The position numbers and the translations under genes are program-made. Shown piece after piece: positions 6,300-41,659 of a stretch of 44,573 nucleotides of DNA. How positions within the stretch are numbered: position 1 is the first letter of the stretch; the number at the start of each line of letters is the position of its first letter. Below the pieces are notes generated by a model that was not told the origin of the DNA, made no database searches, and saw only the letters and a program-made list of their open reading frames with translations. Origin of the DNA: Desulfobacca sp. (lineage in GTDB: Bacteria > Desulfobacterota > Desulfobaccia > Desulfobaccales > Desulfobaccaceae); the NCBI GenBank assembly GCA_028695935.1, contig JAQVHY010000008.1, forward strand, positions 1 to 44,573, in the 5' to 3' direction.

Positions 6300-6439
6300 G
6301 CCTTAGTCCAAACACCGCTTTCCCTCCAGCACCAGGGTTTTCAGAAAAAAAACCGATTAATCGATTTAGTTTTAACTACCCCCCGCCGCCCTAAAAAGAT
6401 ATACATTGTTTAGTCCCTGATTTCTGGCGATTTTAACTA

Positions 6440-6590
6440 GTTTTCATCCGGAAACTCCCCCGCCCCTGGTGGCAGGGGGTTGGGGTGAGGGGGACGTTAA
6501 TTTCAATATATTGAGATTATATAATATTTCTTCACCCCCACCCTAACCCTCCCCCCTCAAGGGAGAGGGGAAAGCGGTTTTCCGGATGGA
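6440..6590 (+). repeat. Palindromic interspersed repeat, copy A
   Basis: This GC-rich imperfect palindrome of about 150 bp has ends GTTTTCATCCGGAAAC on the left and TTTTCCGGATGG on the right. Inside are two GC hairpin arms and a central AT-rich part containing the perfect palindrome TCAATATATTGA (6503-6514). Related copies lie at 35713-35862 and 40664-40820 (both inverted relative to this one) and at 41540-41615 (internally deleted). A short TAACT occurs just outside both ends and may be the remains of a target duplication. The rest of the 386-bp gap before murJ (6300-6439 and 6591-6685) holds nothing recognisable. Confidence 0.8.
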
Positions 6591-6685
6591 TCCTAACTGG
6601 GGATAACCAGTAAAGAGTTGGAATCGTATGGTTCGGAGCTCGCGGAGCACCCCATCGCTAATCTGAGTCAGCGGTTTACCCCATT

Positions 6686-13321: not shown

Positions 13322-13398
13322 TGGTGGCGGTGCAGGGATTCGAACCCCGGACACTGCGGATATGAGCCGCATGCTCTGACCACCTGAGCTACACCGCC
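13322..13398 (-). tRNA. tRNA-Met (anticodon CAU)
   Basis: The 77-base gene folds as a full cloverleaf. The acceptor GGCGGTG pairs with CACCGCC, the D-arm reads GCTCAGGTGGTCAGAGC, and the anticodon stem TGCGG/CCGCA encloses loop CTCATAT with anticodon CAT. The T-arm is CCGGGGTTCGAACCCTG, the discriminator is A, and CCA is encoded. The Watson-Crick 5' end argues against initiator tRNA. CAU could also be an Ile2 tRNA after lysidine modification; the overall form is closer to elongator Met. Confidence 0.93.
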
Positions 13399-35706: not shown

Positions 35707-35712
35707 GTCAGG

Positions 35713-35862
35713 ATACATCCGAAAACCCATTGTCTTCCTCCCCCTTGATGGGGAAGGGCAGGGTGGGGGTGAAAAATATCTTATTATCTCAATACGTTGA
35801 GATTTATGCCCCCTCCCCCAAACCCCCTCCCAGCAAGGGCGGGGGAGTTTACGGATTAAAAC
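35713..35862 (-). repeat. Palindromic interspersed repeat, copy B (pal-cpoB gap)
   Basis: This is the same family as copy A in inverted orientation, with more diverged ends (TACATCCGAAAAC and TTTACGGATTAAAAC). The core still has the CACCCCCACCCT strand and a central TCAATACGTTGA palindrome. It fills part of the 655-bp gap between pal and cpoB. The rest of the gap (35239-35678) has no gene I can support. It contains a GGTGGCC/GGCCACC hairpin at 35409-35428 and a GGCGCG/CGCGCC hairpin at 35634-35650. Confidence 0.75.
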
Positions 35863-40663: not shown

Positions 40664-40820
40664 GTTTTCATCCGGAATCTTATATTTTCCCTTGCCCCGC
40701 TCGCGGGGAGAGGGTTAGGGTGGGGGTGAAAAAAATATTATATCATCTCAATATGTTGAAATTTACGTCCCCCTCCCCCCAGCCCCCTCCCACCAGGGGC
40801 GGGGGAGTTTCCGGATGAAA
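40664..40820 (-). repeat. Palindromic interspersed repeat, copy C (upstream of gdpD)
   Basis: The element spans 157 bp, inverted relative to copy A, with near-perfect terminal repeats GTTTTCATCCGGAA and TTTCCGGATGAAA. It has both GC hairpin arms (CCCCGCTCGCGGGG; CCCACCAGGGGCGGGGG) and the central CTCAATATGTTGAAA. It stops 27 bp before the gdpD ATG. Confidence 0.8.
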
Positions 40821-40847
40821 GCCACCTATCATCCTAAGGAGGTCAAG

Positions 40848-41540
40848 ATGGTGCGCATCATGGGGCATCGGGGGGCGCCGGCCTATGAACCGGAAAATAC
40901 CCTGCGGTCGGTGCGTCGCGCCCTGGAGATGGGCGTTGAAGCCGTGGAGATTGATGTCCAACTCACCCGCGACGGGCGGCTGGCGGTTATTCATGACGAG
41001 ACCGTGGACCGGACTACCAATGGCACCGGCCGGGTCCGGGATTTAACCTGGGAAGAACTGCGGCGTCTGGATGCCGGGCAGGGCGAACGCATCCCCGCCC
41101 TGGAAGAGATGGTCGCACTGGTACGGGGGCGGGCCCATCTGGTGGTCGAGCTCAAGCAGCCCGAGGCGGTTCCGGCTCTGGCCCAATTTTTCCAAGAGCA
41201 TGCCTTGTTTGACGACGCCCATGCCATCTCCTTCTGGCATCCCGCGGTCAAGGCCTTAAGGCAGATGGAGCCGCGTATCAAGACCGGGGTGTTGCTGGTC
41301 GGGCACCCGGTGGATCCGGTAGCCCTGGCCCGGGCCGCTGACGCCGAGGCGCTGGTCCTCAATTTTGCCTTTGTTAATCGGGAATTGGTCCACACTGCCA
41401 AGGCCGCCGGCCTGATGGTGTTTATCTGGAACATCGATACCATTGAGCTGTTAAAGCCGTTTCTGGAACTGGAATTGGATGGCATCGGTAGTAATCGCCC
41501 CGATGTCCTGATTGACTATTTAAGAACCCACCCTCGTTAG
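40848..41540 (+). CDS. Glycerophosphodiester phosphodiesterase
   Basis: GDPD enzymes cut glycerophosphodiesters to glycerol 3-phosphate and an alcohol. The start is ATG 40848, with AAGGAGG at five bases; an earlier ATG at 40815 lies inside the repeat element. The 230-residue product has the catalytic HRGAPAYEPENT region with His7 and Glu16. A second metal-site region carries Glu34, Asp36 and catalytic His49 in VEIDVQLTRDGRLAVIHDET, followed by VDRTTNGTGRV. No signal peptide is present, so it is cytoplasmic. It is bracketed by two copies of the same repeat family. Confidence 0.93.
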   Translation: MVRIMGHRGAPAYEPENTLRSVRRALEMGVEAVEIDVQLTRDGRLAVIHDETVDRTTNGTGRVRDLTWEELRRLDAGQGERIPALEEMVALVRGRAHLVVELKQPEAVPALAQFFQEHALFDDAHAISFWHPAVKALRQMEPRIKTGVLLVGHPVDPVALARAADAEALVLNFAFVNRELVHTAKAAGLMVFIWNIDTIELLKPFLELELDGIGSNRPDVLIDYLRTHPR

Positions 41541-41615
41541 TTTCCATCCGAAAACTTCCCCGCCCCTGGTGGGAGGGGGTTGGGGGGAGGGGAACAATGG
41601 TTTTCCGGATGAACA
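41540..41615 (+). repeat. Shortened palindromic repeat, copy D, with 7-bp flanking repeat
   Basis: This internally deleted copy keeps the left arm and the right terminus (GTTTCCATCCG and TTTTCCGGATGAACA). CTCGTTA occurs directly on each side, at 41533-41539 and 41616-41622, like a target-site duplication. The left copy includes part of the gdpD stop codon. Confidence 0.75.
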
Positions 41616-41659
41616 CTCGTTAAGGTAGTTCTGCAGCAGGGCTTTACGGTAGCTCTCGG

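Follow-up and report, generated by a model that had tools for sequence, protein, structure and literature searches.

REP/REPIN repeats and their RAYT enzymes (TnpA_REP) are among the described systems closest to the elements considered here. In that system a short palindromic repeat, often seen as inverted pairs, is dispersed in trans, the enzyme genes are few and are flanked by the same repeat, and the class of repeat tracks the clade of the enzyme. Triplex repeats of the BoxC/PIT class form another group, noted since the 1990s, and to our knowledge no agent is known for them. The accessible text of Holder et al., 2015 describes an intrastrand triplex motif (TM), the E. coli form of which was formerly named BoxC or PIT, that is intergenic, present in high copy and found in many genomes (PMC4666352). 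E. coli has a type A and a type B (TTA and CCG linker), all five E. coli inverted pairs consist of one A and one B, and the authors saw no mobility genes in the neighbourhood of the E. coli copies, TM_ECO (PMC4666352). The same text cites earlier observations of a polymerase block in vitro, and earlier work in which PIT elements had no promoter or terminator activity (PMC4666352). A third comparison is with MITEs derived from insertion sequences (ISs), here of the ISNCY family; judged by titles, the open-access literature searched showed no MITE of ISNCY or ISDol1.

The window, a stretch of 44,573 nucleotides from Desulfobacca sp. (GCA_028695935.1, contig JAQVHY010000008.1), contains four copies of a short repeat which the sequence-only reading had described as a MITE or REP-like element mobilised in trans, with shared terminal inverted repeats, two GC arms and an AT palindrome at the centre. 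All four copies were found base by base where that reading had placed them. Copy 1 (6440..6593, forward strand) is full length at 154 bp, with a type-B-like arm, the AT palindrome and a type-A-like arm, and lies on the forward strand between the target duplications TAACTA (6434..6439) and TAACTG (6594..6599), identical at 5/6 bases. By eye its left arm (6455..6494, forward strand) is a type-B-like stem-loop with a third purine strand, diverged and missed by the strict triplex detector, while its right arm (6533..6569, reverse strand) is a type-A-like triplex motif with one mismatch to a 37-bp pattern found across phyla. Copies 2 (35711..35862, 152 bp) and 3 (40664..40822, 159 bp) are in reverse orientation on the reverse strand, and their flanks are mismatched (CAGTCA / TAATTA and TAATTG / CACCTA), as is expected of old copies. 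Copy 4 (41540..41616, forward strand) is a short form of 77 bp made of the left terminus, the left arm and the right terminus, between perfect forward-strand duplications of TCGTTA (41534..41539 and 41617..41622); the centre and right arm are absent, and a lone triplex-motif arm remains at 41558..41591 on the forward strand. In copies 1 to 3 the terminal inverted repeats and the two GC arms are as first described; the shared plan of two arms about an AT centre does not hold for copy 4. Short forms may have originated by deletion between like stretches, an interpretation by analogy with an allele of E. coli SE15 described below.

The triplex detector was positive in all four window copies, with one or two arms per copy, and a hairpin fold of the whole element gave z = -3.19 (hairpin only, with no triplex model). 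The copies are non-coding and intergenic, as had been claimed, and copy 1 has no gene assigned to its 154 bp. Copy 4 abuts the stop codon of the upstream ORF: this TAG takes its TA from the end of the target and its G from the first base of the element. One ORF is listed from 40815, inside copy 3; in our reading 40848, behind AAGGAGG, is likely the better start, which puts copy 3 25 bp upstream of this ORF, presumably a glycerophosphodiester-phosphodiesterase-like gene. The sole Rfam match in the window at the gathering threshold is a tRNA gene (13325-13398, reverse strand).

Elements of this family end in GTNTNCATCCGGAAAC and are inserted at the palindrome YTANNTAR, of which the 6-bp TANNTA is duplicated. 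In the 3.17-Mb draft of the same genome, the terminus pattern TANNTAGTNTNCATCCGGAAAC, with 3 mismatches allowed, was matched at 185 places (100 of them listed) and its reversal at none. A looser terminus pattern of 15 bases had 301 matches where its control had 102, and with a 171-base query, for which 40 of 159 candidates were scored, 45 matches reached E<=1e-3. Within this genome 65 distinct elements were read with both ends (up to 5 mismatches at each end, taken from fetched stretches), far from four only, and these span 64-240 bp, mostly 150-156. Terminus matches were found in all seven genomes of the family searched, at 185, 87, 32, 31, 27, 23 and 7 places, with reversed controls in the same order of 0, 0, 0, 3, 1, 3 and 1, so that the genome with 7 places is a weak case.

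The target was read from an alignment of 49 copies with their flanks, in which the outer sequence beyond the similarity is the palindromic YTANNTAR; it leaves out duplicate loci (L001, L006, L013, L017 and L025), the nine loci of other genomes and any alignment of under 110 bases. In the 38 of these copies whose ends are clear, left and right flanks agree at the two free N positions in 30/38 and 29/38 pairs, compared with 13.5 and 17.9 in mismatched pairs, while the positions just outside TANNTA agree in 10 (13.0 expected) and 15 (14.8 expected). As the N positions agree in excess and the next outward ones do not, the duplication is six bases long, and longer duplications of 7 or 8 bp are not supported. 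Across the 65 elements, 23 have 6/6 target bases identical and another 23 have 5/6 (7% and 26% of mismatched pairs, respectively), which puts 46/65 at 5/6 or better compared with 33% of mismatched pairs. Some unusual arrangements were also seen. An array at G000:C139:12396-12716 (L058) has three left termini and part elements head to tail every 89 bp, followed by one reversed copy, and an element at G000:C110:8254-8505 (L070) carries about 90 bp of extra AT-rich sequence centrally, likely a nested insertion. A terminus pair 1,495 bp apart (L062) was rejected, being ordinary coding sequence by eye.

An IS with the same termini, which the sequence-only reading had proposed looking for, exists in relatives and belongs to the ISNCY family of DDE elements. 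In one relative (G006) a terminus pair 1.7 kb apart encloses a 453-aa ORF (P0001) that scores 470.8 bits on the NCBIfam model ISNCY_1 (NF033593, cut-off 325) and also matches Pfam DDE_Tnp_1; the targets of this copy are unequal (L121, TAGATA / AAATTA). A complete IS is found in another family of the same order (L122, genome G011); each of its ends has TAATTA followed inward by GTTCCCATCCGGAAAC, and the intact 454-aa ORF between them encodes an ISNCY_1 transposase (486.8 bits, cut-off 325). We take the parent to be of the ISDol1 type within ISNCY. Matches to the G006 transposase occur in 9/59 genomes. The draft that contains the window gave no match to this protein, none to the ISNCY_1 family model and no visible ISNCY fragment, and none of its four DDE_Tnp_1 loci has a terminus at up to 5 mismatches. 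A missed ISNCY copy in this draft is possible, since in another draft (G018) several IS fragments sit at contig ends. The sequence-only reading would have fallen had there been only four copies and no related transposase, and it fails to fall on both counts; mobilisation of a MITE in trans is supported by the 65 elements together with a DDE IS that shares their ends and target. We regard it as confirmed that the elements are MITEs, non-autonomous relatives of an ISNCY-family DDE IS, with transposition itself being inferred. Ends, target, duplication, high copy number and a complete IS in the same order are all direct observations of this mobility layer.

Other combinations of ends and interiors were observed. 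Two G006 loci (L088 and L116) have the same kind of ends around a different interior with a GTAGGGGCGAGGCATGCCTCGCCCCTAC-type palindrome, and so several repeat types ride in these ends. Conversely, the same GC arms are enclosed by other termini at four loci (L033 at G015:C47, L165, L196 and L213), by eye about CTAGTGT..TGTCCC in L033, L165 and L213; a second type of MITE end may carry the arm pair there.

The GC arms run in the order pyrimidine strand, loop, purine strand, short linker and purine third strand in mirror order, and in the elements their flavour is CCCTCCCCC-loop-GGGGGAGGG-linker-GGGTGGGGG. Judged on this architecture and its allowed triads, the arms are putative intrastrand triplex motifs of Holder's TM class; there are no data for triplex formation in solution. 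They do not match the E. coli TM_ECO consensus (CCCTCNCCC...GGGNGAGGG...GGGNGAGGG) and, because their flavour differs from it, are filed in the TM class and not as BoxC. The core of the MITE, as far as sequence can tell, looks like the A/B pairs of E. coli, with two unequal motifs in inverted orientation. In the genome of the window the 37-base right-arm pattern, with 3 mismatches allowed, picks out 55 arms, and the reversed control picks out none. Across GTDB species genomes at least 111 stretches contain an exact copy of that pattern, and among the 80 arm matches listed are Deltaproteobacteria, Nitrospirae, Alpha- and Betaproteobacteria, Chloroflexi, Brocadiales, Bacillota, Armatimonadetes, Actinomycetota and Spirochaetia.

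A DUF559 (PF04480) reading frame starts at the arm in three of the 80 cross-phylum arm loci, and a better profile gave four DUF559 matches in 566 kb, three of which adjoin an arm. Most arms therefore have no DUF559 nearby, as expected if most are non-autonomous. In the reverse test DUF559 genes were collected regardless of arms. Among the DUF559 loci of relatives, 12/30 carry the arm flavour of the window (up to 7 mismatches), and in every one of these no more than ~125 bp separates the domain from the nearest arm; a second arm, at roughly 250 and 365 bp, is present in two of them. Reading of the first set of flanks (set 1) revealed other flavours with the same triplex architecture. The triplex detector was written after that reading and then frozen, and only set 2, from other genomes of the phylum and mostly from other families (3/19 share a family with set 1), is held out. 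With one locus that has no reading frame excluded (L288), a motif is adjacent in 25/29 DUF559 loci of set 1 and in 18/19 of set 2 (15 upstream and 13 downstream), over a background, more than 300-400 bp from the gene, of 8 hits in 59.4 kb and 9 hits in 41.3 kb, respectively. Control ORFs have an upstream motif in 3/49 cases. In set 1 the detector found no motif at four loci, all of them frames of 259-602 codons that match DUF559 only weakly, although a motif does accompany some of the other long frames.

A motif lies on both sides of the gene in 15 loci of set 1 and 10 of set 2 (only 25/48 overall), and the (+) upstream and (-) downstream form is present in 20/48. In 35/48 the end of the upstream motif falls in the span from 40 bp ahead of the domain start to 10 bp beyond it; the downstream motif often overlaps the end of the gene. 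Inverted repeats flanking DUF559 genes reach or exceed the 95th percentile of 133 random control places in 54/70 loci, 41 of them above the control maximum, after exclusion of five weak loci and two with too little flank. A gene's own upstream and downstream flanks rank as a pair in the top 5% against the flanks of other genes in only 38/70, owing to flavours being shared among genes. Distance between DUF559 proteins correlates with distance between upstream motifs (Mantel r 0.511, 0/5000 permutations, in the 45 of 72 loci used), and still does so for pairs under 70% identity (r 0.459, 0/2000 permutations), although shared ancestry of the gene and its flank may contribute in part. What these loci show directly is adjacency, an orientation common among them, and motif flavours that diverge together with the nuclease clades. 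In three loci (L262, L269 and L280, alignment A1) the DUF559 frames have C-terminal tails, for example SPRPSPPSGERE or PPLTPPLKGGE, that resemble a translation of the downstream motif.

Beyond these two sets the association is less complete. On plasmids, 16 of 40 DUF559 matches were read, from Deinococcota, Cyanobacteriota, Alpha- and Gammaproteobacteria, and a motif is present in 10/16; the background is higher here, at 9 hits in 17.0 kb, although a single locus accounts for 6 of these. Viral contigs have it in 3/8 good DUF559 loci and, in remote viral relatives of DUF559, in 0/9. The strict detector thus misses 6/16 plasmid loci and 5/8 good viral loci, and some of those missed have other hairpins by eye. 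Two Deinococcus plasmids (L330 and L333) have related hpaB/hpaE regions in which the neighbours of the DUF559 unit differ, a hint that the unit has moved.

In the genome of the window DUF559 is matched three times, and each match has motifs on its two sides whose flavour differs from one match to the next. Beside one of them (C21:28514-28828) is a window-type arm that fits the pattern exactly (C21:28457-28493), and the others lie between motifs of the CCCCCCTTT.. and CCCCTCTCCC.. flavours (G000:C36:6699-7025, L306, and C103:21849-22166, L307). On this evidence three nuclease-repeat pairs coexist in one genome. In E. coli MG1655, TM_ECO 9 (1,351,204-1,351,239) lies 168 bp from ycjD (1,351,407-1,351,760), a gene annotated as DUF559. 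Around ycjD, K-12 DH5alpha has a single detected motif, on the 3' side only, and strain KE47 has two on that side. A query containing ycjD is covered to at least 80% in 3362/5426 genomes, and an efflux operon occupies its place in the two strains without it that were read, as also reported in the accessible part of an earlier study (PMC12817139). Other E. coli alleles were compared for signs of movement. At fepB-entC they differ by 186 bp around a motif pair, at alx-sstT the SE15 allele looks like a deletion between two CCCTCTCCC stretches, and in strain G3 the stretch is longer and of another kind. None of the alleles compared amounts to a clean insertion event, and they are compatible with deletion.

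Six proteins match PF04480 at 132-150 bits, and the family profile matches a solved homologue, the endonuclease-like protein 3hrl of the PDB, at 2.8e-39. In the parts of the literature open to us, DUF559/YcjD/Vsr-like proteins are treated as PD-(D/E)XK or putative mismatch-repair nucleases (PMC1189080, PMC12907096), and a 2005 study handles YcjD as a PD-(D/E)XK protein with a profile that detects Vsr (PMC1189080). Supplements excluded, no title or passage of the open-access literature, as far as it could be accessed, ties a DUF559/YcjD nuclease to a repeat. The term REP-like used by the sequence-only reading fits the arms in a way that it did not anticipate, as triplex motifs that accompany DUF559 nuclease genes; the link to RAYT is not supported.

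One rival account is an ordinary ISNCY-derived MITE, with GC arms that either remain from the parent IS or are merely local hairpins without a system of their own. ISNCY does explain the ends and the target, and another genus of the family (G004) has other interiors between the same ends. The arms, however, are absent from the complete ISs (L097 and L122), neither of which has a triplex motif inside, and so are not part of the IS. They also live outside these ends: in relatives beyond the family the same arms lie between other ends, CATCCGG termini being missing in 5/9 loci from other genomes, and of 17 arms read, five lack a terminus altogether (L294, L296, L299, L303 and L308) and the other 12 have one on one or both sides. 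With exact arm matches in many phyla and the architecture of Holder's TM, we find this account very improbable. Still harder to credit is that the arms are REP/BIME repeats mobilised by a REP-associated tyrosine transposase (Y1_Tnp), the agent suggested for checking by the sequence-only reading. Inverted pairs of unequal hairpins, intergenic and in high copy, speak for such an enzyme, and the genome does have seven Y1_Tnp matches, one of them (L042) with a terminus-like TTCATCCGGAAA about 80 bases away, while the L058 arms lie about 2.8 kb from a Y1 match. Yet the detector finds the triplex motif in 0/7 of the Y1 loci, where the arm patterns give only scattered partial matches, and the arms are carried by DUF559 genes instead.

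Two further accounts accept the neighbourhood of DUF559 and motif and read it differently. DUF559 could home to, or insert at, existing motifs as a parasite resembling a homing endonuclease, without mobilising them. The DUF559 profile weakly matches the mobile intron protein 3r3p (E 0.0068), motifs far outnumber DUF559 genes, and the position of the upstream motif just before the gene, with the downstream one often overlapping its end, would suit such an insertion. The inverted flanks around the gene and the tracking of clade by flavour suggest instead a unit that travels together, although homing and mobilising are not exclusive; we consider homing alone unlikely but still a live possibility. 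Alternatively, the motifs beside DUF559 could be regulatory, as hairpins or triplexes controlling expression of a toxic nuclease or acting as plain bidirectional terminators, and the upstream motif is indeed in a typical leader position in the 35/48 loci noted above. This would leave the genome-wide dispersal of the same flavours and the inverted A/B arrangement unexplained, and sits poorly with the lack of promoter and terminator activity of PIT in the earlier work that the accessible text of Holder et al., 2015 cites (PMC4666352), and we think it improbable.

Our preferred reading, to which we assign a probability of roughly 0.78, is that the elements are ISNCY-type MITEs moved in trans, with a cargo consisting of a triplex-motif pair that is spread by DUF559; the transposition and the action of the nuclease are both inferred. 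An ISNCY transposase acting in trans would bind GTNTNCATCCGGAAAC at both ends and insert the element into YTANNTAR with duplication of TANNTA, and the source transposase would since have been lost from this genome, or is unassembled. The core would be an inverted pair of triplex motifs, a DUF559 bracket without its gene, and the MITE would have arisen once such a gene-less pair came between ISNCY ends. We infer that the DUF559 nuclease may recognise the folded or single-stranded motif and may spread it by nicking or cutting followed by repair copying, in the manner of RAYT and REP, although the folds of the two enzymes are unrelated. That the motif is a substrate of DUF559, as REP is of RAYT, is probable, but is an inference by analogy without biochemistry.

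Compared with IS-derived MITEs, the elements of the window share their short length, the lack of an ORF, the terminal inverted repeats, the target duplication and the ends of a complete DDE IS; they differ in that the interior is a triplex-motif pair and not a deleted IS, and in that the partner is unseen in the genome. With Holder's TM, BoxC and PIT they have in common the stem, the loop, the mirror-symmetric purine third strand, the intergenic position and the high copy number, whereas the flavour here is not that of E. coli, the motif is carried inside a DDE MITE and a neighbouring nuclease gene has been identified. The DUF559-motif system would work like REP/RAYT, with an enzyme that is a Vsr-like DUF559 of the PD-(D/E)XK kind in place of an HUH tyrosine transposase.

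More broadly, the BoxC/PIT triplex repeats may be the non-autonomous half of a pan-bacterial DUF559 (YcjD) mobile system, an idea on which we are evenly divided. The autonomous unit would be an inverted motif pair around a DUF559 gene and the bare motif pair its dispersed form, each nuclease clade would serve its own motif flavour, and bare pairs could hitch-hike inside DDE MITEs, as they appear to do in the window. With a clade-matched nuclease as a neighbour, the question of what spreads triplex repeats becomes directly testable, in E. coli K-12 with ycjD. If so, the REP-RAYT principle could have been invented twice, independently, and a widespread domain of unknown function could gain a role. 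The window shows that triplex repeats are also able to spread inside transposon ends.
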